From contig LDXJ01000040.1 of NCBI GenBank assembly GCA_001029295.1, positions 1-58,258 of the forward strand: 58,258 bases of DNA, read 5' to 3'. The DNA comes from Peptococcaceae bacterium CEB3 (GTDB taxonomy: Bacteria > Bacillota > Desulfitobacteriia > Desulfitobacteriales > Desulfitobacteriaceae). The notes beneath the pieces are model-generated. The model ran no database searches. It was given only the letters and a program-made list of their open reading frames with translations, and was not told the DNA's origin. A program made the position numbers and the translations under genes. This document shows, in pieces, positions 39,146-55,910 of this stretch. Within the stretch, counting starts at the first letter, position 1. Every line of letters begins with the position of its first letter.

Positions 39146-39979
39146 ATGAATAATGTTGCTGCCGGAATTGTTCTGTATAACCCAGACAGGAACCAATTAA
39201 GAGAAAATATTAATGCGATTCTTCCACAAGTAGACCTTTTACTATTGGTCGACAATAACTCGCATAATTATGAAGAGATTCTACCTGATTATACTGGACT
39301 TAACAATGTATACTTGAAACGGAACCCCCAAAATATGGGAATAGCCGCCGCGCTAAACCAAATCGTTGAGTTCTGCAGAGCACGAGGCTATAGATGGGTG
39401 CTAACATTGGACCAAGACTCGGTGTGTTCTCCAGATCTAATAGAGACTTACAGTAAGTACTGGGATGACAATAAAATCGGCATTATAACGCCAAGGATTA
39501 TCGATCAGAATTACTTAGAAGATCTCCAAGCTACAGCAAAGCGTGCCTGCGAGTACGTACAAAGATGTATTACCTCCGGTTCCCTAATCAATATACAGTT
39601 GTGCCGCCAAATCGGGGGTTTCGACGAGAAAATGTTTATTGATTTGGTTGATTTCGAGTACTGTGCAAGGTTACAAGAAGCGGGTTATCAAATTTTGCTG
39701 GCCAATGATGTTGTTATCTTTCATCGCCTTGGCAATCTAAAAGTATATAATTTCCTGGGCAAAAAAATCAGAGTCTCTAACCATTCGCCGATCAGGAAAT
39801 ATTACTACGTTAAGAACTACCTTTACTACCGTAGAAGGCATAATGGGAATGTTGGTTGGATGGAAGTTTGCTTGGGAATTTTAAAGACTATAGGCAAGGT
39901 CGTAATTTTCGAGGCCGACAAACGAGGGAAATTAAGAGCAATATTTATGGGAATAAAGGATGGGCTTGAGGCAAAATGA
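39146..39979 (+). CDS. GT2-family glycosyltransferase (rhamnosyltransferase-like)
   Basis: 277 residues, GT-A fold. It has AAGIVLYNPDRNQLRENINA, LLLVDNNSHNYEEIL, NPQNMGIAAALNQIVEFCRA, VLTLDQDSVCSPDLI (the metal-binding DxD-type region) and IGGFDEKMFIDLVDFEYCAR with the ED-like acceptor motif. This subgroup often transfers rhamnose, which fits the rml genes at the end of the locus (inference). It lies 130 bases after the previous gene and overlaps wzy by 4 bases (ATGA). Confidence 0.88.
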   Translation: MNNVAAGIVLYNPDRNQLRENINAILPQVDLLLLVDNNSHNYEEILPDYTGLNNVYLKRNPQNMGIAAALNQIVEFCRARGYRWVLTLDQDSVCSPDLIETYSKYWDDNKIGIITPRIIDQNYLEDLQATAKRACEYVQRCITSGSLINIQLCRQIGGFDEKMFIDLVDFEYCARLQEAGYQILLANDVVIFHRLGNLKVYNFLGKKIRVSNHSPIRKYYYVKNYLYYRRRHNGNVGWMEVCLGILKTIGKVVIFEADKRGKLRAIFMGIKDGLEAK

Positions 39980-41310
39980 TTACGTTTGCAATTTGCTTGA
40001 TTTTAGGAATAATGATTCTGTCATTTATAGTGTCGAAAGACGTAATCTCACCTAGCGTCATAATGTGTATTCCATGGGCCGCATCTATGCTACCTTTACT
40101 CAACAGTAATTATTTTCTCGACATGAATAGTTGGGTATATCTATATTTTGTGCTTGGCATTATTATCTTTCAAATTGGCTTCAGATTTGGAGGCGGTAAG
40201 GTCTCACCCAAAAGGTGTGAATTCAGTCACCGGAGACTGCCAAAAATTAATAAAGGAAGGATTAAGGCAGTTATAGTTTTCGAGGCCTTGGCATTGTCGT
40301 TGGATATAAAGCAAGTATTGGCGTATATAAAAGGTAATTTCTTCAAGAACTATTTTCTCACTCTTAAGATCGGCCAAGTAAACGGAGTACTTCATACAGG
40401 CCTTTTTTATGTATATTTAACGCCCTTCGTCATTTCTTTTACGTTACTTATAATGCTCACTTACTTAGAATCGAGTAAAGAAAAACCGATGCCTAAAGGT
40501 CTATTGATCATACAAATAGTGCTTGGATACGCCAGCGCGGTTCTAACATTAGGCAGAACTGCCGTTTTACTATTAACGGTAGCCCTGGTTACGGAATACA
40601 TTATATACCGCAATGTTAGAAACAGGAAAATAATGCTGTACGGCTTGTTCTTTGCGATACTCGGTGTAATTATCTTTTCAGCATATTCTGTGGAAAAGTA
40701 TGCCTATGTGGAACAGAATGCTTCTTTATACCAAATATCTACTAGTACGCTCAGGGTTTACCTGTCGGGCGGATTAGTTGCATTCCAGAGTTGGATCACG
40801 GACAATGGCGGACGACAGTTACTGTATGGGCAAAATACTTTTAGGTTTATATTCGCTGTATTGAGCAAAGCTTTAGGATATGACGTAGTGGCACGACCCT
40901 TAGTTAATCCTTTTACGCAAATATCTGGTGAAAGAACCTCAAATGTGTATACTATTTATTACTACTACGTCCGAGATTTTGGTTTGGTTTATGGTATCAT
41001 TGTGCAATATTTTATTGGCATCCTACATGGCTATCTATATAAGAAAGCTGCTACGAAATCGCCTCTAGCAGTGTACTTCTTTTCCCTATCAATGTTCCCG
41101 CTTCTCATGCAGTTTTTTCAAGACCAATACTTTTCCTTAACATCCACGTGGTTACAGTATGCTCTTTGGGGAATTATCTTCTATAAATCCAGGTTATTTA
41201 TACGCGCCCAGTCAAAGACTGAAAGTAACGCTTGTGAATATGAGAGACCAAATGAAGTTACTTCCGTTTCCGTTCCCTTTAACGAAAACGAACAAGTCCC
41301 GGCCCCCTAG
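39976..41310 (+). CDS. Polysaccharide repeat-unit polymerase (Wzy-like)
   Basis: 444 residues with about ten to twelve hydrophobic segments, for example FAICLILGIMILSFIVS at the N-terminus, VLGYASAVLTLGRTAVLLLT near the middle and LVYGIIVQYFIGILHGYLYK near the end. A large loop follows YAYVEQNASLYQISTSTLRV, as in O-antigen ligase/polymerase proteins. Sequence identity in this family is low, so the call rests on topology, length and position between a glycosyltransferase gene and wzx. The soluble C-terminal tail is not conserved. It is strongly AT-rich. Confidence 0.75.
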   Translation: MITFAICLILGIMILSFIVSKDVISPSVIMCIPWAASMLPLLNSNYFLDMNSWVYLYFVLGIIIFQIGFRFGGGKVSPKRCEFSHRRLPKINKGRIKAVIVFEALALSLDIKQVLAYIKGNFFKNYFLTLKIGQVNGVLHTGLFYVYLTPFVISFTLLIMLTYLESSKEKPMPKGLLIIQIVLGYASAVLTLGRTAVLLLTVALVTEYIIYRNVRNRKIMLYGLFFAILGVIIFSAYSVEKYAYVEQNASLYQISTSTLRVYLSGGLVAFQSWITDNGGRQLLYGQNTFRFIFAVLSKALGYDVVARPLVNPFTQISGERTSNVYTIYYYYVRDFGLVYGIIVQYFIGILHGYLYKKAATKSPLAVYFFSLSMFPLLMQFFQDQYFSLTSTWLQYALWGIIFYKSRLFIRAQSKTESNACEYERPNEVTSVSVPFNENEQVPAP

Positions 41311-41366: not shown

Positions 41367-43523
41367 ATGAGTCTAAAAAGGGACATAGCAAGGGTATTCA
41401 GTTCCAATGTCATTGCTTTGTTGGTAGGAATCATCACGGGTTTCCTCGTTCCCGCCTTTCTACCTCTGGACCAGTATGCGTACCTGAAGACTTTTACACT
41501 ATACATTGGCTACGTTGGGATTCTGCATTTTGGCTTTATTGATGGCCTGTATATCAAATACGGCGGTAAAAGGGAAGAAGAACTAGATAAGAGCATCCTC
41601 AAGGGAGAACATAGGTTTCTGCTTTTTCTTCAGTTGGCTGTGACCATGGTATTTTTAGCTTTAGGAATAGCTTTCAAAGATGGCATTTTAATTGCTTTCT
41701 CGCTGGCGATTATCCCCACAAACATGAGAACCCTTTTTCAATTTCTATTTCAGGCTTTAGGACAGTTTGGGCTATATTCGAAGATAGCGCTTCTTACGCC
41801 CAACTTGCTTCTTCTGACGAACCTATTCCTGATATACGTCTTAAGGATTAATAATTTCTGGCCCTTTGTCTTTGGATCCTTGGGCGTATACTATATAGTC
41901 TTTATCGGTTTAGAGATTATGTTTCTGCGCAGGGTAAGGGGGTGTAAACCTCTTAACGATAATAAAGAACTAATCAACAATTTCAGAGTGGGCATTTTTG
42001 TGATGACTGGGAACTTATCCGCACTTCTTTTTTACTCCATGGATCGCTGGTTTGTAAAACTGCTGTTTTCCATAAGTAGCTTCGCATATTACTCATTTGC
42101 TATTTCGATGATGTCGATTGTAAATGTCTTAATAAGTTCCATCACAATGACATTTTACCCCTATCTCGTTCGCAATCAGGAAGAGGATCTGCTTAAGAAA
42201 ATAAAGACTGGTTTACTAGTCATAGGGACGGTTGCCAGCGGAGCCTACTTTGTCTTCGCTTTTATTGTAAGGGTGTTCATGAAGAAGTATATCCCGTCGC
42301 TAGACATCATATCCATCCTGTTCGCGGAATGTCCGGCTGTTATCGTAATTAACGCTTTATACGTAAATCTCTATAAAGCTCGAAAAAGGGAGCGGCAGTA
42401 TTTTTTCACAGTATTTAGGATGCTCGCAGTTACACTGGTATTGAACGCTGTTTCTGTCCTGCTCTACAAGCGGCCACAAAGCATCGCCTTAGCCACAACC
42501 CTCTCCTTCTATGTGTGGTATGTATTCTCCAGCAGGCATTTCGACGCACTGAAGATTCGCGCGAAGGAACTCATTTATCTGTTGTCATACCTGACCCTAT
42601 TTTTTATCAGCGCTATCCTCCTCAGTTGGTGGCAAGGGCTTATAGCGTACCCCCTTTCAATAGTGGGGTTGAATCTGTTGTTCTACTATAGCGAAATGAA
42701 GGAATGGGTCAGGGAGAACCTGAAAGGTGTTGGTATAATGAGGCGTCTGCGGAGGCCCCTGAGACTCTCTGGAGGGCGAGTCCGCGTCGACCTGCGGATC
42801 GTCGGGGTGACCCTCTTCCTGGCTTTGGTGGTGGTTGTCGCGATGTATTTGCGGACGAATCACTGGGTCAACGCGCGCCCGGGTAATCCCGTTGTGGTCA
42901 AAGAAACGCAACCCAATCAACCGACTGTAACCGAAGCTCCCCAGAGGAAACACGGGACAGAGGCTCGTGACCTGCGCTCTAACACCGCTAATACCAAGAT
43001 CGTCACCGTCGGAGATTCCTTCACCTATGGCAACCCATTCGGCCCTCAGGAGTCCTGGCCCAAATGGGTCGCTAACCTGCTTGGGGTTGATGTCGTCAAT
43101 AATGCAAGAATCGGCCAGACTTCGCGGGATGTCCTCACTCATTTCGACCGGGATGTCTTAGCTTACAACCCCGGCCGAGTCGTCATCTTCGTCGGAGACG
43201 GGGACGCAATCAAGAGGGTGAGTGAGGCGGACTACCAAAACGATATTAAGGCCATGGTCGAGAAGGCGTGGGCGAGTAATATTACCCCGATCTTGGCCCT
43301 GCCCGTTCCTTATAGGGGGCTCTCTCAGCCCATAGGGGCCATGCGCAGCTGGCTCACGGCCTACGCTAAAGAGCAGAAGATCCGGACTCTGGATTTTGCT
43401 TCTGTTTTATTTGACAGCCAAGGTAACTACCTTCCTGGCATGTCGAACGACGGGAAATACCCCTCGCTTCAAGGCTACAGAGCGATGGGGGACTATGCGG
43501 TCCAAGTCTTAGAGAAGGGGTGA
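41367..43523 (+). CDS. Wzx flippase fused to a membrane-anchored SGNH hydrolase
   Basis: 718 residues in one frame. Residues 1-457 are a 12-14 span polysaccharide flippase (MATE/Wzx type: LKRDIARVFSSNVIALLVGI, DRWFVKLLFSISSFAYYSFA). Residues 458-718 form a different protein: a basic start MRRLRRPLRLSGGRVRVD, one membrane span (IVGVTLFLALVVVVAMYL), a linker, and an SGNH/GDSL domain with VTVGDSFTYGNPFGPQES (nucleophile Ser in GDSF), VVIFVGDGDAI and a C-terminal block ending [20 protein letters not shown]. Base composition jumps from AT-rich to GC-rich at about 42,690. The ATG at 42738 has AAAGGTG upstream and may still serve as a start for the esterase alone. The SGNH half would deacylate or acylate the exported glycan. 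Confidence 0.85.
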   Translation: MSLKRDIARVFSSNVIALLVGIITGFLVPAFLPLDQYAYLKTFTLYIGYVGILHFGFIDGLYIKYGGKREEELDKSILKGEHRFLLFLQLAVTMVFLALGIAFKDGILIAFSLAIIPTNMRTLFQFLFQALGQFGLYSKIALLTPNLLLLTNLFLIYVLRINNFWPFVFGSLGVYYIVFIGLEIMFLRRVRGCKPLNDNKELINNFRVGIFVMTGNLSALLFYSMDRWFVKLLFSISSFAYYSFAISMMSIVNVLISSITMTFYPYLVRNQEEDLLKKIKTGLLVIGTVASGAYFVFAFIVRVFMKKYIPSLDIISILFAECPAVIVINALYVNLYKARKRERQYFFTVFRMLAVTLVLNAVSVLLYKRPQSIALATTLSFYVWYVFSSRHFDALKIRAKELIYLLSYLTLFFISAILLSWWQGLIAYPLSIVGLNLLFYYSEMKEWVRENLKGVGIMRRLRRPLRLSGGRVRVDLRIVGVTLFLALVVVVAMYLRTNHWVNARPGNPVVVKETQPNQPTVTEAPQRKHGTEARDLRSNTANTKIVTVGDSFTYGNPFGPQESWPKWVANLLGVDVVNNARIGQTSRDVLTHFDRDVLAYNPGRVVIFVGDGDAIKRVSEADYQNDIKAMVEKAWASNITPILALPVPYRGLSQPIGAMRSWLTAYAKEQKIRTLDFASVLFDSQGNYLPGMSNDGKYPSLQGYRAMGDYAVQVLEKG

Positions 43524-44380
43524 AAAGAGACGTGAAAGTCATGGTCACGGGTGCGAACGGCCAGTTGGGCAGGGAAATCGCAAGACAGTTTCAGGGAAGG
43601 TATGGACTCTTCCTGCACGACCTGCCCGGCCTGGATATTACCGACTACCCGTCGGTCGAAAGCCGGATCACGGAGATTAACCCGGCGGTGGTGATCAACG
43701 CGGCCGCTTACACGAATGTGGAGAAGGCGGAGGAAGACGAGCCGGCGGCTTTTCAGGTGAATGCCATGGGGGCGCAAAACTTAGCCATCGCCTGCAAACG
43801 AACCGGGGCCAAATTCGTCCAGATCAGCACGGATTACATCTTCGACGGCACCAAAAACACTCCCTACGCCGAGTTCGATTTCCCTCACCCGCTTTCGGTC
43901 TACGGTCAAAGTAAGCTCTGGGGTGAGAAGCTGGTGGAGGAAGCGGGCGGGGACTATTTTATCCTGCGCACCTCCTGGCTCTACGGGGACGGTCCGAATT
44001 TTGTCAAGACGATGCTGAAACTTGCCGGTGAGCGGGATAAGCTCAGCGTCGTGGCCGACCAGTACGGCACGCCGACTTATACCAAGGATTTGGTCTGGGT
44101 CATCGAAAAACTGATGCACACGGAGTTCTATGGTGTCTATCACGCGTCCAATAACGGGAGCTGCAGCTGGTATGAGTTTGCCTTAAAGATCTTCGAACTC
44201 GCGGGTCAAGAGGTGATCGTCGAGCCTGTAAATAGTGATGAATACCCGACGAAGGCCCGGCGCCCCAGGTACTCGGTCATGGAAAACAAAATCCTCAAGT
44301 TAAGGGGGCTTGACCTGAAGCGGCCCTGGGAAGAGGCCTTGCGGGACTATCTCACGAACGACCTCGGGTTGGCTCACTGA
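43520..44380 (+). CDS. rmlD: dTDP-4-dehydrorhamnose reductase
   Basis: 286 residues. [18 protein letters not shown] (NADPH-binding), [60 protein letters not shown] and [17 protein letters not shown] (YxxxK) are classical for RmlD. It reduces dTDP-4-keto-L-rhamnose to dTDP-L-rhamnose. The start may be GTG 43520, overlapping the stop of the preceding gene by 4 bases, or GTG 43532. Together with rmlB, rmlA and rmlC it gives the complete rhamnose nucleotide route. Confidence 0.93.
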
Positions 44381-46094: not shown

Positions 46095-46982
46095 ATGATT
46101 AAAAAAGGAATCATTCTCGCCGGAGGATCCGGCACCCGGCTCTACCCGCTCACGACCGCGGTTAGTAAGCAGCTGATGCCGGTCTACAACAAGCCGATGA
46201 TCTATTACCCGCTCAGCACTTTAATGCTCGCCGGGATTAAAGAAATACTCATCATCACCACGCCCCAGGACCGACCCCTCTTTCAAGGGGTGCTGGGAGA
46301 CGGGAGCCAATGGGGACTCCGCCTGGAATATGCCGTTCAGCCCACTCCGGGAGGGCTGGCCCAAGCTTTTCTCATCGGCCGGGATTTCATCGCCGCCGAC
46401 GGCTGTGCCCTCGTTTTGGGGGATAATATCTTCTATGGCCACGACCTCACCGGGAGCCTCGCCCGGGCCGCCAAGGAGGATAGCGGAGCGATCGTCTTTG
46501 CGTACTGGGTCAAAGATCCCGAGCGCTACGGCGTGGTGGAGTTTGACCAACGCGGACAGGCCGTGAGCATGGAGGAAAAGCCCAGCCGGCCGAAGTCCAA
46601 CTACGCAGTAACCGGCCTCTATTTCTACGACAACCAAGTCGTGGACATCGCCTCGAGCCTCCGTCCCTCCGCTCGCGGGGAACTGGAGATTACCGACGTG
46701 AACAAAGTCTATCTGGAGCGTCGCCAATTGAGAGTGGAGAAATTGGGCCGCGGTTATGCCTGGCTCGACACCGGTACCCATGAGTCCCTCCTCCAAGCCG
46801 CGAATTTCATCCAGACGGTGGAGGAGCGGCAGGGGTTAATGGTGGCCTGTCCGGAGGAAATCGCTTACCGCATGGGCTATATCGACGCCGGAGAGGTGCT
46901 CCGCCTGGCGGATCCGCTCAGCAAGAACGGCTACGGGCTCTACCTGCGTAACCTGGTGAGGGAGGGTGTTAGTCAGTTGTAA
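46095..46982 (+). CDS. rmlA: Glucose-1-phosphate thymidylyltransferase
   Basis: 295 residues. [20 protein letters not shown] (nucleotide-binding signature), [82 protein letters not shown] and [13 protein letters not shown] are diagnostic for RmlA. It makes dTDP-glucose from glucose-1-phosphate and dTTP and is usually feedback-inhibited by dTDP-rhamnose. The gene is isolated from rmlB by the 75-base repeat and from rmlC by a 31-base repeat. The ribosome site is weak: GGGAGGAG lies about 20 bases upstream. Confidence 0.95.
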
Positions 46983-47280
46983 ACTGGTGAGGAAGCATGC
47001 TTGTCAATCGTAATCTGGTAAGGGAGGGTCCGTGTCAATCGCGACTTCGGAGGGGACAGGGAAGTTTAAAAGTGATGCCATGAACCAACATGTCGTGTCC
47101 AGCGCATTGTTTTTAGCCTAGATATAGTTGAGAAATTTCGCTTTGACCAGACCCTGACCCTGGGTAAGGAAAGGTGCTAGTCAATGGCATCCTGATAAGG
47201 GAAGGTGTTTGTCAATCGCATCCCGATAAGGGAAGGTGTTTGTCAATCGCAACTTGGTGAAGGGAGGTGTTTGTCAATGA
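46953..47280 (+). repeat. 31-base repeat carrying a ribosome-site motif, between rmlA and rmlC
   Basis: Units start at about 46953, 46984 and 47015, then after about 115 unrelated bases again at 47160, 47191, 47222 and 47254. The core is GATAAGGGAAGGTGTTTGTC with AATCGCA. Each has an AGGGAGG-like stretch, and the last unit is the true ribosome site of rmlC (AGGGAGG at 47261-47267). The first unit overlaps the rmlA 3' end. Confidence 0.85.
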
Positions 47281-47846
47281 ACGTGATAAAAACGCACTTG
47301 CCCGGGGTCCTCATTATTGAGCCGGACATCTTCGGGGATAAGCGGGGCTTTTTTATGGAGACTTGGAATAGGGTGCGCTATGGGGACAAGGGTCTCACGG
47401 TCAACTTCGTCCAGGACAACCTTTCTTTTTCCCAAAAAGGAGTGCTCCGGGGCCTTCACTTCCAGTACCCAAATCCGCAAGGAAAACTGGTCTACGTCCT
47501 GCAAGGGGAAGTCTTTGACGTGGCGGTGGACATCCGGCTCGGTTCCCCGACCTTCGGCTGCTGGCAGGGAGTGACCCTCTCGGGTGAGAACAAGAGGCAA
47601 TTCTACATACCGGAAGGGTTTGCCCATGGCTTTTGCGTAACCAGTGATACGGCTCTCTTCGCCTATAAGTGCACGGAGGTTTACACTCCGAAAGCCGAGC
47701 ACGGGCTCCTCTGGAATGACCCGGATCTCGGCATTGACTGGCCGGTGGCTGAGCCGTTATTATCTGAGAAGGACAAGGTCTATCCCAGACTGCGTGATTT
47801 GGGGGCTAGGGTTTTGCCTAGGTACGCAAAGTCCGGTTCGGAGTAG
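47277..47846 (+). CDS. rmlC: dTDP-4-dehydrorhamnose 3,5-epimerase
   Basis: 189 residues, cupin fold. LPGVLIIEPDIFGDKRGFFM, TVNFVQDNLSFSQKGVLRGL with HFQYP, KLVYVLQGEVFDVAVDIRLG, FYIPEGFAHGFCV and LLWNDPDLGIDWPV are diagnostic. The active-site His in RGLHFQ and the Tyr/Asp near FAYKCTEVY are present. The ATG at 47277 follows AGGGAGG. Longer in-frame starts lie in the tandem repeat and add only repeat-derived residues. It is the last gene of the rhamnose set; no clear terminator was found after it. Confidence 0.95.
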   Translation: MNVIKTHLPGVLIIEPDIFGDKRGFFMETWNRVRYGDKGLTVNFVQDNLSFSQKGVLRGLHFQYPNPQGKLVYVLQGEVFDVAVDIRLGSPTFGCWQGVTLSGENKRQFYIPEGFAHGFCVTSDTALFAYKCTEVYTPKAEHGLLWNDPDLGIDWPVAEPLLSEKDKVYPRLRDLGARVLPRYAKSGSE

Positions 47847-47937: not shown

Positions 47938-48885
47938 ATGAGCAAATTTACCACAAATGAACGCTGCTTTGTACGGAATCAAGAATGCGGGCGGGTATTT
48001 TCGGGATCTAAACTTTGCTTCATCGCATGCCCGGCATCGGAAGAAATAAGTCTTGAATTAAGCGTTATTAAAGAGAAACTTAGAAAGTATAAAATTGAAC
48101 CGTACGTTGCTGTCGAAGAACGGGAATTAGGAAAGGACATTTTTTGCGAGAAGATATGTGGGAAGATTATCGAGGCCAAATTCTGTGTGGTGATACTAAA
48201 CCACGTTAAGAACGAAAATGGAACTTTAGTTCCAAATTCAAATGTCTATTATGAATATGGTCTAATGACAGGGCTACACAAAAAGATAATACCAATTCAA
48301 AAAGAAGGACAAAAACTTGCATTTAATATTCAAAGTTTCGAGTCAATAATTTATAAGCCGAATACTCTGACGGAAGAGATTGATAACGCTATTATGAAAA
48401 CAATTCTGAATACGGAGGAAAGGGAGATTTCTGATAGAAAGGGAATGAATCCGTCGTGGCTAGCTGGTTTAAATGGCTATATTGAGATAGATAGGTTTGG
48501 TGATCGGGATTTTAGGGACCTGGTATTTCAATGCAAGGATACCCATATGAGGGCTTTTCAAAATCCCTTAGAAGGAACAATAGCTGTAATTGGGCCATTT
48601 GAAGCCCTTAGCTTTCCAGCGATTGCAACAGAATTTAAGGTTATATTTAACCGCCTACAGCAGTTGCGAGCGGGTTTACAATTACAGATTCAGGAGCTAG
48701 AAGTTCAGAAGGAAGTTGACGGATTAGCAAGAGCCAGATTTAGGAATGGGTTTGTAACACTTCAGCATCAGGTTGAGATGCTAGAAAAGGTGAAATACGT
48801 TTTGGTCGACAACCCTGGAATTAGCGTTGATGAGGTTTTGTTAGAAATAAAAAATATACCCTACTTAGAGGTATGGACAGCATAA
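47938..48885 (+). CDS. TIR/deoxyribosyltransferase-like nucleotide-binding protein, candidate defence effector
   Basis: 315 residues. Residues 25-135 look like the TIR-like / nucleoside 2-deoxyribosyltransferase-like fold: KLCFIACPASEEISLELSVI, then YVAVEERELGKDIFCEKI, AKFCVVILNHV, and NSNVYYEYGLMTGLHKKIIP with Glu106 in the position of the catalytic glutamate of that superfamily. The C-terminal ~180 residues are mostly helical (EFKVIFNRLQQLRAGLQLQI) and not recognised. The gene is AT-rich, unlike rmlC before it. It starts at ATG 47938 after GGGTGGGGGG. Just after the stop is a copy of the palindromic repeat. NAD or nucleotide cleavage is inferred from the fold only. Confidence 0.65.
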   Translation: MSKFTTNERCFVRNQECGRVFSGSKLCFIACPASEEISLELSVIKEKLRKYKIEPYVAVEERELGKDIFCEKICGKIIEAKFCVVILNHVKNENGTLVPNSNVYYEYGLMTGLHKKIIPIQKEGQKLAFNIQSFESIIYKPNTLTEEIDNAIMKTILNTEEREISDRKGMNPSWLAGLNGYIEIDRFGDRDFRDLVFQCKDTHMRAFQNPLEGTIAVIGPFEALSFPAIATEFKVIFNRLQQLRAGLQLQIQELEVQKEVDGLARARFRNGFVTLQHQVEMLEKVKYVLVDNPGISVDEVLLEIKNIPYLEVWTA

Positions 48886-49952: not shown

Positions 49953-50034
49953 GTGCTCGGCCACAATTTCTCCTAGCCAGTCGAAATTGTGCCGGGGTCG
50001 TACCCTCACACAATGGGGAACAATTGTGACAATT
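49953..50034 (+). repeat. Palindromic repeat, copy A
   Basis: TGCTCGGCCACAATTTC and, after 12 bases, GAAATTGTGCCGGGG form a 9-10 base stem, followed by a conserved tail with CTCACACAATGGGGAACAAT and GTGACAATT. It aligns over about 80 bases with copy C at 55401. Confidence 0.75.
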
Positions 50035-50211: not shown

Positions 50212-50287
50212 TGCTCGACCCCAATTCCTCCGTCTCGCCAGAATTGTGCATGGGTCTGACCGCGTCACAAAGGGAAACGACTCCGAC
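50212..50287 (+). repeat. Palindromic repeat, copy B
   Basis: TGCTCGACCCCAATTCCTCC, then CAGAATTGTGCATGGGTCTGACC and GTCACAAAGGGAAACGACTC. It is the same element as copies A and C, with an arm shortened by substitutions. Confidence 0.75.
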
Positions 50288-50423: not shown

Positions 50424-50840
50424 GTGCTTAACATATTCACACAAAGGACCTGGTTGCTCGTCGCGGTATTCTGGTGTGCTGTGATCTTTGCATTCACGGC
50501 GCTCCCCATTTTCACAGGGAAGAATACAGGCATCGTGCTAGAGCATCTTACCCATGTGCCGCTGAAAGACTTAAAGCCTCTGAATTTCCTGGTCCGTAAG
50601 ACGGCCCACGTAGTCGTTTATGCGGTGTTAGCGTTACTCTTGTTCTACGCTATGGGGCACCATGCCGTCCTTTCTTATGGACTGACAACGGTGTATGCGG
50701 CTTCCGACGAGTTCCATCAAATCTTTGTGCCGGGTCGAACTCCTGCGGTGCAGGATGTCATGCTGGATTCAGCTGCTGCGTTGATTGTGATTCTTGTGTT
50801 GACGCGGATTAGGAAGCAGCATCGGTTTGGACGGAGGTGA
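50424..50840 (+). CDS. VanZ-like membrane protein
   Basis: 138 residues. It has the VanZ-like pattern: a first span (WLLVAVFWCAVIFAFTALPI), then LNFLVRKTAHVVVYAVLALL with the conserved RKxxHxxxY, and YAASDEFHQIFVPGRTPAVQ with DxxxD/EFHQ. Three to four membrane helices. Family members are linked to teicoplanin resistance, phosphate metabolism or unknown membrane roles. The start is taken as GTG 50424; its GAGGAG lies very close, so a nearby downstream start is possible. Confidence 0.85.
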   Translation: MLNIFTQRTWLLVAVFWCAVIFAFTALPIFTGKNTGIVLEHLTHVPLKDLKPLNFLVRKTAHVVVYAVLALLLFYAMGHHAVLSYGLTTVYAASDEFHQIFVPGRTPAVQDVMLDSAAALIVILVLTRIRKQHRFGRR

Positions 50841-53526: not shown

Positions 53527-54777
53527 ATGAATGCTGCTGCCAAGGTTTGCTTTGTCATAATGGGCTTTGGGAAGAAGCAAGACTACGGTTCAAATAGGAC
53601 GTTAGATTTAGATCAGACATATAAAAATATAATCAAGCCCGCGGTAGAGCAGTCAAGTTTAAGATGTATTAGGGCAGATGAAATTATGGATTCTGGAATA
53701 ATTGACAAAAGTATGTATGCGCTAATAATGAAGGCAGATCTTGTAATCGCAGATATTTCTACATATAATCCAAACGTATTATATGAACTTGGAGTACGTC
53801 ATGCCGTAAGGCCATTCTCAACTATCATACTGAAAGAAAAAGGATGTGATTTTCCGTTTGATTTAAACCACAATAGAATCTTTACCTATACACATCTCGG
53901 AGAAGATATCGGTGCAGATGAGGCGAATAGGTGTCAAACTGAATTAAGACTATTAATTAATGAAATTATATTGGCACAAAACGTCGATAGTCCGCTATAC
54001 GAATACTTAAAGAAAACAACTCCCCCCTCACTAAATGAGGACGAATATACTCAAGTTTTGGATGAGTTGGCAGAGAAGGAAAACACTGTTTTTGCTTTTG
54101 TTGAAAAGGCAAAAGAATTTATGAAGAATAGTAGTTTGGAAAAGAACTTATTTGAGGAAGCAGCTGCAATGTGGTCCAAAGTCGAGCAGTTGGTTCCAAC
54201 AGAAAAATACTTTACACAACAAAGGGCACTATGTACTTACAAATCTAAGCAACCATCTATTCATTCGGCCTTGTGTGATGCATTGGTAATAATAGATAGA
54301 CTAAATCCGAGGGACAGCCATGACACCGAAACGTTAGGAATAGCGGGAGCGATTTGCAGAAGGTTGTTTGAAGAATCGGAAGATGCGGTTTACCTGGATA
54401 GGGCTATTGAGCACTATGGTAGGGGATATAACCTAAATAATGATTATTATACTGGGGAAAACTATGCATTTTGCTTAGATCTTAGACGGAATTCAGTTGA
54501 AGATAGCGAGGAAAAGATATATTTAAAACTCAGGGCTAAAAAGGCAAGGCAGAAAATAATAGGCTTTCTTGAAATAGTGACTAGAGATTCTGATTTTGAA
54601 AAACGGGAAGACAAAGAGTGGGTTTTTGCATCAATTTCAACTTGCTATTACGCGTTAAATGACGATGTCAAAGGACATTATTACGAAGATAAGTTTAAAA
54701 ATGAATTCACATCTCCATGGGAAGAGGAAACTTTTAATGATAGCAAAGGAAAGATATTATCTCTAAGAGACAGCTAA
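53527..54777 (+). CDS. DUF4071-like protein: deoxyribosyltransferase/TIR-like domain plus TPR-like helices
   Basis: 416 residues. The N-terminal domain (1-130) starts VCFVIMGFGKKQDYGSNRTL, continues IRADEIMDSGIIDKSMYALI, then DLVIADISTYNPNVLYELGV with Glu87 in the catalytic-glutamate position of the nucleoside deoxyribosyltransferase/TIR-like superfamily. Residues 165-410 are helical, with tetratricopeptide-like pairs (EEAAAMWSKVEQLVPTEKYF, AICRRLFEESEDAVYLDRAI, WVFASISTCYYALNDDVKGH). This layout matches bacterial DUF4071 (TRAF-binding) proteins, related to the central region of animal ASK kinases. It is followed after 21 bases by a TIR gene. It is AT-rich (ATA, AGA codons). A sensor/scaffold or effector role in immunity is inferred. 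Confidence 0.7.
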   Translation: MNAAAKVCFVIMGFGKKQDYGSNRTLDLDQTYKNIIKPAVEQSSLRCIRADEIMDSGIIDKSMYALIMKADLVIADISTYNPNVLYELGVRHAVRPFSTIILKEKGCDFPFDLNHNRIFTYTHLGEDIGADEANRCQTELRLLINEIILAQNVDSPLYEYLKKTTPPSLNEDEYTQVLDELAEKENTVFAFVEKAKEFMKNSSLEKNLFEEAAAMWSKVEQLVPTEKYFTQQRALCTYKSKQPSIHSALCDALVIIDRLNPRDSHDTETLGIAGAICRRLFEESEDAVYLDRAIEHYGRGYNLNNDYYTGENYAFCLDLRRNSVEDSEEKIYLKLRAKKARQKIIGFLEIVTRDSDFEKREDKEWVFASISTCYYALNDDVKGHYYEDKFKNEFTSPWEEETFNDSKGKILSLRDS

Positions 54778-54798
54778 AGCTTACGGGGAGGAAATTTT

Positions 54799-55389
54799 GT
54801 GGGAAGAAAATGCTTTATATCATTTAAAACGGAAGACGAATCCTACAAGAAATGTATCCAGGATAATTTAAACATTAATATGATTGACAAATCTCTTAAT
54901 GAAGCTATCGAATCAGAAGATGAAGACTATATTATGCGAAAAATAAGAGAAGATTATTTATGCGATTCCACAGTGACCATACATTTAATAGGGACAAGAG
55001 GTTCGGAAGATCTTGGTTTAGAAGAACAGATATTTGTAAAGAGGGAACTGCAAGCCTCTCTTTACAACGGTAAGGGGAATACTCGCAATGGAATCTTAGG
55101 TGTAGTTTTGCCAGGTATGATTACTTCGGTTTTTAGGGGATCTTATACCTGTAAGAAGTGCGGAGAAACCCACAACTGGGTAAATGTCAATGATTCTACA
55201 ACCATTAAAGAGTTTAGTATTAATTACTATCTGCCTGGAAACGACAAATGCTATTATGGAGAAGAAGATAGATATTGCGTCATTGTAGGGTGGGACGATT
55301 TTTGTGCTAACCCTGAAATTTATATTGAAAAAGCATTTAAAAAACGAATGTCTAAAATTAGTGAAAAGGTAATCGTGTACCCTAAATAG
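54799..55389 (+). CDS. TIR (DUF1863/ThsB-like) protein with a four-cysteine insert
   Basis: 196 residues. RKCFISFKTEDESYKKCIQD, then SEDEDYIMRKIREDYLCDST, VTIHLIGTRGSEDLGLEEQI and RNGILGVVLPGM follow the pattern of DUF1863 TIR-like proteins such as ThsB of Thoeris, which make cyclic ADP-ribose-type signals. Glu76 or Glu83 could be the catalytic Glu. The C-terminal part has CKKC at 118-121 and two more cysteines (151, 160) that could form a zinc site, which I do not expect in ordinary ThsB. The GTG start has GGGGAGG upstream. It is tightly linked to the DUF4071-like gene and followed 11 bases later by palindromic repeat C. Confidence 0.72.
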   Translation: MGRKCFISFKTEDESYKKCIQDNLNINMIDKSLNEAIESEDEDYIMRKIREDYLCDSTVTIHLIGTRGSEDLGLEEQIFVKRELQASLYNGKGNTRNGILGVVLPGMITSVFRGSYTCKKCGETHNWVNVNDSTTIKEFSINYYLPGNDKCYYGEEDRYCVIVGWDDFCANPEIYIEKAFKKRMSKISEKVIVYPK

Positions 55390-55400
55390 GATAATCCTGG

Positions 55401-55480
55401 TGCTCGACCACAATTCCTCCGTCCCGTCGGAATTGTGCCGGGGTCTGACCTCAACACAACGGAGAACGATTCTGACAATT
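55401..55480 (+). repeat. Palindromic repeat, copy C
   Basis: CACAATTCC pairs perfectly with GGAATTGTG (loop TCCGTCCCGTC). The tail CCGGGGTCTGACCTCAACAC and ACGATTCTGACAATT is shared with copies A and B. It sits directly after the TIR gene stop. Confidence 0.8.
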
Positions 55481-55580
55481 CAATGCTCGAAATCTGATCA
55501 GCAACAAATCGGTGCTCAGCCCCGAGGTTTCCCTCCCGGTCAACCGTGGGTTGGGGACTGTCCCCTTCAAGGTTTGGCAC

Positions 55581-55910
55581 AATACCAAAATCGTTACCGC
55601 CGGAGACTCCTTCACCTATGGTAACCCTTTCGGCCCACAAGAGTCCTGGCCCAAATGGGTCGCCAATCGGCTTGAGATTGACGTCGTCAACAACGCCAGA
55701 GTCAGCCGCACCTCGCGGGATGTCCTCACTCATTTCGACGGGGATATCTTGGCTTACAACCGGGTCATCATCTTTGCCGGAGACGGGGACGCAATTAAGA
55801 GGGTGAGTGAGACAGACTACCGGAACGATATTGAGGCTATGGTCGAAAAGGCGTGGGCGAATAACATCACCCCGATCTTGACTGTAAGAGTTGAGGGCAA
55901 GACAACTTAA
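55581..55910 (+). pseudogene. Truncated copy of the SGNH hydrolase domain
   Basis: Bases 55581-55890 are closely similar to 42990-43303 of the wzx-SGNH gene. The protein has IVTAGDSFTYGNPFGPQESW and EAMVEKAWANNITPILT, but the N-terminal membrane anchor and the C-terminal third are missing, and a small deletion removes two residues (near AYNRVIIF). The frame is open from 55512 but the upstream part is unrelated. It is a non-functional partial duplicate, placed between two candidate defence genes. Just upstream is GGGGACTGTCCCC, a small palindrome. Confidence 0.85.

Follow-up and report, generated by a model that had tools for sequence, protein, structure and literature searches.

A rare in-frame fusion of a Wzx-type flippase and a degenerate SGNH-fold domain beside the rml genes of Peptococcaceae bacterium CEB3

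Organization of the fused frame and its locus

Peptococcaceae bacterium CEB3 is a sulfate-reducing bacterium, and the window considered here is the whole analysed stretch of its DNA, 58,258 nucleotides of contig LDXJ01000040.1. An open reading frame of 718 codons extends through positions 41367-43523 from ATG to TGA without an internal stop, with AGGAG located 6 bases upstream of the start codon. A preliminary description of this DNA presented it as one frame joining a flippase to an SGNH protein; this was borne out, and both the coordinates and the domain limits were right. The features of the locus are as follows:

39146..41310, + strand: AT-rich genes preceding the fusion, for a rhamnosyltransferase-like GT2 and a Wzy-like repeat-unit polymerase
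41367..43523, + strand: fused open reading frame (718 aa), Wzx-type flippase, linker, membrane anchor and SGNH-fold domain
41367..42707, + strand: Wzx-type (MOP fold) flippase, complete, residues 1 to about 447; homolog in genome G339, Foldseek match to MurJ (6nc9)
42708..42782, + strand: junction linker, about residues 448-472; contains ATG 42738 and out-of-frame stops at 42721, 42736 and 42739
42783..42872, + strand: SGNH membrane anchor helix, residues 473-502; helical in the AlphaFold2 model, aligning with the N-terminal helix of free-standing homologs
42987..43520, + strand: SGNH-fold domain (residues 541-718) with Ser551 retained and with Gly612 and Tyr698 at the Asn and His positions, respectively; nearest structure 4rsh
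43520..44380, + strand: rmlD (TIGR01214), directly downstream of the fusion, its earliest possible start overlapping the fusion's stop codon
44403-45470, + strand: rmlB, dTDP-rhamnose gene
46095-46982, + strand: rmlA, dTDP-rhamnose gene
47205-47846, + strand: rmlC, dTDP-rhamnose gene

As judged from homologous sequences, two whole genes are joined here in frame, with about 25 residues between the natural end of Wzx and the anchor helix. They were recognized as complete because the nearest Wzx found terminates at the beginning of the join and the SGNH genes most similar to the second part are free-standing; in relatives, both parts were found as separate genes, the Wzx in G339 and the SGNH protein in Acididesulfobacillus acetoxydans. 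An AlphaFold2 model of the fused protein comprises the flippase helices, the anchor helix and an SGNH domain with a pLDDT of about 97, separated from the anchor by a low-confidence linker (residues 503-540, pLDDT 30-39); with a pTM of 0.45, the placement of the flippase relative to the SGNH domain is not reliable.

A search for the flippase part in 398 genomes drawn from the phylum returned matches in eight, the window's own genome included, and the nearest was the free-standing, 448-residue protein of G339, 58% identical over residues 1-448, which terminates at the point where the join starts. Identity to it drops somewhat toward the C-terminus, from 0.60 (residues 1-363) to 0.48 (364-445). 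Pfam gave no match for the flippase part by itself at E 0.1, and the G339 relative matched PF01943 (Polysacc_synt) weakly, with 23.5 bits under a cutoff of 28.2. With a model of middling confidence as the query, Foldseek aligned the flippase part to MurJ 6nc9 (E 5.2e-6, TM 0.64 of target, rmsd 7.4). The neighboring Wzy-like, glycosyltransferase and rml genes suggest that the flippase half would transport a lipid-linked glycan.

The G + C content of the frame is 0.42 over 41367-42734 and 0.564 over 42735-43523, and that of the flippase part resembles the AT-rich glycan genes upstream. The preliminary description had placed a composition break at about 42,690-42,740. For total GC this agrees with the best change point at 42740 (2-log-unit range, 42418-42754), but the break is soft; GC at third codon positions changes at 42456 (42384-42501), inside the flippase, and its rise thus precedes the junction by about 280 bases. 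A sharp break as proof of crossover was consequently rejected. The related proposal, that the join marks the crossover of a cassette exchange, was retained in part: the genes are joined, the SGNH gene goes with the rml side and the flippase has the composition of the upstream glycan genes, but a crossover exactly at the junction was not upheld. Cassette exchange is a plausible origin of the join. A glycan cassette shared with G339 was also considered; the Wzy and GT2 genes beside the G339 Wzx are not counterparts of those in the window, and block transfer was rejected for that pair.

Other genes lie near the rml cluster. VanZ-like genes occur near rml genes in the window (50424-50840, about 7 kb downstream of the fusion) and in locus L036 (5065-5523), and in A. 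acetoxydans a VanZ gene overlaps the end of a free SGNH gene. Downstream of the window's rml cluster, AT-rich genes at 53527-55389 and 47938-48885 resemble TIR-type defence proteins, the candidates being a TPR-S protein with a TIR-like N-terminus and a ThsB-like TIR protein (Thoeris), together with a weak CAP12/Pycsar TIR match.

The SGNH-fold domain and its relatives

Pfam assigned the fused frame to GDSL lipase families only, with the best stretch at residues 548-706, and the PF13472 match of 72.9 bits against a cutoff of 32.9 places the domain in the SGNH superfamily. The nearest solved structure is 4rsh from Desulfitobacterium hafniense (50% identity, Foldseek TM-score 0.97 over target), and TesA was among the SGNH-fold matches. 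The nearest proteins in sequence are the products of free-standing genes of A. acetoxydans, 57-60% identical and each with one N-terminal helix; copy A begins with MRRK just before the anchor helix, and copy B has MRKK at the same position inside a longer possible frame.

The active site was compared across 44 family rows and 12 canonical paralogs, obtained from the fetched loci after removal of duplicates (59 of 76 matches kept, three of them fragments); further family members found in a survey of 82 genomes of the class stand outside this alignment. The catalytic Ser of block I (GDS), Ser551 in the window protein, is Ser in 44/44 family rows, and the catalytic Asp, also present in the window protein, is kept in 36/44. 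The Gly of block II (Gly583) is Gly in only 4 of the 44. At the Asn position of block III (GxND), represented by Gly612, Gly is found in every family row versus Asn in 12/12 canonical paralogs, and at the His position of block V (DxxH), represented by Tyr698, Tyr is likewise invariant versus His in 12/12. Each of the substitutions Asn82Ala and His216Ala is reported to abolish the activity of an SGNH lipase of Streptomyces rimosus (PMC10779480). The absence of Asn and His throughout the aligned family makes it doubtful that the domain is the acyl-modifying enzyme first suggested, and the simplest reading of the alignment is that this degenerate family does not act as an ordinary hydrolase. The conserved Ser and the largely conserved Asp leave room for unusual catalysis as a possibility. 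Although structure 4rsh is titled a putative lipolytic protein, its catalytic Asn and His positions are likewise occupied by Gly and Tyr. Given that Asn and His are lost in every aligned row, automatically assigned labels like lipase or acylhydrolase may be mistaken for these genes and for 4rsh.

In a tree built from 56 rows (the 59 without the three fragments), the SGNH domains of the window genome, of a Desulfosporosinus metagenome-assembled genome (MAG_BO167, here G036) and of the two A. acetoxydans copies formed a clade (100/100), within which the window genome grouped with A. acetoxydans (99/89) and G036 fell outside. RmlD is 82% identical between the window genome and A. acetoxydans as compared with 57-60% for SGNH, and the SGNH genes of these two organisms may therefore not be simple orthologs. 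The fusion adjoins rmlD in both the window and G036. In A. acetoxydans, one VanZ gene separates SGNH copy A from rmlD, and copy B lies about 12 kb further off. Since the SGNH gene of this clade is found beside rmlD (G036) or one VanZ gene away from it (A. acetoxydans), it appears to go with the rml side of the locus. When four rml-type SGNH sequences were used to scan contigs by exact peptide patterns, 34 loci were returned, of which 31 were short partial matches and were set aside, and three were close, two in A. acetoxydans and one in MAG_BO167. Elsewhere, at 25 of 29 loci (counted by eye), the SGNH gene is free and transcribed divergently from a YlbF-type gene (PF06133 for the one tested); the window genome has kept the YlbF gene without an SGNH neighbor, and in A. 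acetoxydans the YlbF gene is far from the SGNH copies.

Apart from the fused copy, no full SGNH gene of the family was found in the window genome; of the 44 columns conserved in the other rows, the fused copy agrees at 43. Fragments of such genes occur in the window (55578-55898) and on other contigs of the genome (C12:12533-12844, C60:8833-9084 and C60:10651-10954), with DNA 85-92% identical to the fused copy, and in A. acetoxydans a stretch of about 13 kb contains two full copies and two partial ones. Over the stretches that three fragments cover, the conserved columns were matched in 17/19 vs 19/19, 24/30 vs 29/30 and 13/14 vs 14/14 for fragment and fused copy, respectively. The fragments are thus just slightly worse than the fused copy, which weakens the claim that they have decayed, and residue conservation is at most a weak sign of a special constraint on the fused copy. 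A short repeat with a palindrome (CACAATTCC...GGAATTGTG) was observed in the window at 49953-50034, 50212-50287 and 55395-55585; it matched 17 places in the window genome, counting the query copy, three in A. acetoxydans and one in G036. The longer of its copies adjoin SGNH fragments without a gap, as though the repeat had moved or broken them.

Occurrence of flippase-SGNH fusions

A second flippase-SGNH frame was identified in G036, a MAG estimated to be 92% complete with 6% contamination. It encodes 797 amino acids within an rml locus, with a MurJ domain (PF03023, 50-492) followed by a GDSL domain (626-785), and its MurJ part is 81% identical to a free-standing, 556-residue MurJ in a genome of the same GTDB genus (G014). 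The modeled protein has the same order of domains as the window protein, with a poor flippase part, and its SGNH domain keeps 44 of 45 conserved columns; G036 also has an ordinary free SGNH gene of another type. Used as a query, its MurJ part did not match the Wzx of the window and found in the window genome just a separate MurJ gene, which indicates that the flippase partners belong to different families. Where the free gene begins with MRRK, the G036 frame reads SRRRK, and between the end of MurJ and the anchor helix no in-frame ATG, GTG or TTG was found when the codons were read by eye; going upstream, the first in-frame start codon is a GTG within MurJ itself. Lacking a start codon at its native beginning, this SGNH domain would hardly be made except as part of the fusion, and the existence of such joined proteins is unlikely to reflect one sequencing error, a conclusion to be taken with some care since G036 is a MAG.

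A match to the SGNH domain at 1e-20 was obtained in 68 of the 82 genomes of the class, canonical paralogs included, and flippase-fused frames, selected by length and then by content, in two. A fused flippase and SGNH protein is thus rare, and one finding that would have counted against the original proposal, a widely conserved fusion of uniform composition, does not apply, the two cases also having different flippases. The same count led to rejection of the fusion as a general feature and implies that any benefit of it cannot be general. Three other long frames were different fusions. In G044:C10 (L069 3134-4645), a frame of 504 amino acids fuses the degenerate SGNH family to a zinc-ribbon/DUF4190 protein, and the domain is thus attached to more than one kind of partner; those in G064:C176 (L164 1168-2388) and G019:C18 (L163 1711-2799) were rejected as canonical SGNH proteins, with GxND and DxxH kept and with long C-terminal extensions of other, non-flippase sequence, the G019 frame being covered up to the end of the fetched stretch, past which it runs. 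In a wider draw of 299 genomes from the phylum, which did not contain G036 and in which 69 had a match at 1e-15, the longest frame besides that of the window had 326 codons, too short for a whole flippase and SGNH domain. A flippase-SGNH fusion was not mentioned in the titles and abstract openings searched, a body of text that leaves subscription journals mostly outside and does not establish absence from print.

The joining of two flippase families to a single SGNH clade is most simply read, from the tree and the sequences, as the result of two separate fusion events; a single old fusion, followed by exchange of the flippase and by splitting in A. acetoxydans, is possible. That the second fusion involves a different flippase may mean that joining the parts is useful, and the two cases together point to this SGNH clade as a directly testable partner of flippases.

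Proposed function and comparison with known systems

Proteins found fused in nature often act together, and the handover of a flipped unit from the flippase to the next enzyme is poorly known. We propose, with about even confidence, that the frame encodes one polytopic protein in which an outward-flipping Wzx is followed by an extra helix and by an SGNH domain that holds the glycan on the outer face, that the tether is favored and that the join arose twice. The Wzx-type flippase would carry outward a repeat unit that is linked to undecaprenyl and probably contains rhamnose. For the MOP flippases TacF and MurJ, 14 helices are reported (PMC13385700), and an even number of helices in the flippase half would leave its C-terminus inside, from which one extra membrane helix would carry the SGNH-fold domain to the outer face of the membrane. 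There, rather than acting as an ordinary hydrolase, the domain would bind or hold the freshly flipped lipid-linked glycan and pass it to the polymerase. Tethering would be favored in that both partners act on the same substrate, which would also explain why the join arose twice. Its origin may have been the landing of a flippase from a variable glycan cassette directly upstream of SGNH-rmlD, followed by loss of the stop codon between the adjacent genes. Extending this proposal, it is tentatively suggested that the degenerate, membrane-anchored SGNH family as a whole acts, without catalysis, as a receptor of lipid-linked glycans on the outer face and has twice been fused to the flippase, Wzx or MurJ in type, of a rhamnose-glycan locus. 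If true, the fusion would represent a covalent flippase-receptor unit coupling flipping to polymerization or to quality control.

Other explanations, which are not exclusive of one another and whose probabilities overlap, were weighed against this proposal. Recombination in a variable glycan locus could have produced the join as a harmless side effect, with the domains working as if separate and the tether without function. Its restriction to two of 82 genomes and the abundance of duplicated SGNH fragments and repeats in the region, indicative of frequent rearrangement, are consistent with such an accident; however, in two genomes a member of one SGNH clade next to rmlD is fused to a flippase, each time of a different family and with the conserved SGNH columns retained, which argues against an accident, and we consider this explanation possible, if rather doubtful. 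It is somewhat less probable that the window genome makes the flippase and the SGNH protein separately, the latter from ATG 42738, and that the wzx stop was lost very recently through a single-base change or is missing because of an assembly error. This ATG and the possible ribosome site noted for it in the preliminary description are indeed present, with AGGTG 8 bases upstream, which makes separate products possible in this genome; frame +1 has stops at 42721, 42736 (overlapping the ATG as TAATG) and 42739, such that a one-base insertion or deletion would split the frame into two genes, and the natural Wzx end lies just upstream. Against this, there is no single-base run longer than 3 within 42689-42736, the same frame holds 10 stops in the 96 codons examined and a well-placed stop is therefore not rare, and an independent genome, G036, is fused at the same place without a start codon at the native SGNH start.

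A still less probable reading gives the SGNH domain esterase or O-acyltransferase activity, with which it would trim or decorate the glycan after flipping, much like the AT3-SGNH proteins. The SGNH fold, the Ser kept in all 44 family rows and the location of both parts in a sugar locus would fit with such an enzyme, but Asn and His are absent from every one of these rows, replacement of either by Ala inactivates the S. rimosus lipase as reported, no acyltransferase partner domain was found in the frame by Pfam, and the triad of the SGNH domain of OafB is reported to be essential (PMC9833829). The proposal of a tethered flippase and glycan-holding domain remains the preferred one.

Among known systems, the AT3-SGNH proteins (OafB, OafA and OatA) resemble the fusion in that a polytopic membrane protein involved in surface-glycan modification extends through a further helix into a C-terminal SGNH domain on the outside, as described in PMC9833829, where the eleventh helix of OafB is said to carry its SGNH domain to the outer face. 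Unlike these proteins, the membrane part of the fusion is a MOP-type flippase, its frame giving no match to the AT3 domain PF01757 at E 0.01, and its SGNH domain lacks the catalytic His and Asn; of the Ser-Asp-His triad, Ser and Asp are present and His is replaced by Tyr. In the YbbAP-TesA system, a membrane transporter is likewise described as making hydrophobic substrates available to a hydrolase partner across the membrane (PMC12646458), but these are separate proteins in a complex, the transporter is of the ABC type, for which no match was found in the fused frame, and TesA is catalytically active. Structure 4rsh shares with the window SGNH domain both active-site replacements, Gly for Asn and Tyr for His, and differs from the fusion in that the crystallized sequence is a 179-residue SGNH domain alone, without a flippase. 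The SGNH genes divergent from YlbF in Desulfosporosinus and its relatives encode members of the same family, with one N-terminal anchor helix and the same degenerate active site, but as separate genes. A published precedent for the pairing of a MOP flippase with a lipid-active domain is provided by VanZ, which is reported to be linked or fused with MviN/MATE flippases (PMC12419801), the fused domain in the window being SGNH-like and not VanZ. Compared with these systems, the frame in the window is a rare domain fusion, a new architecture made of known parts, and its design is repeated in a related genome.
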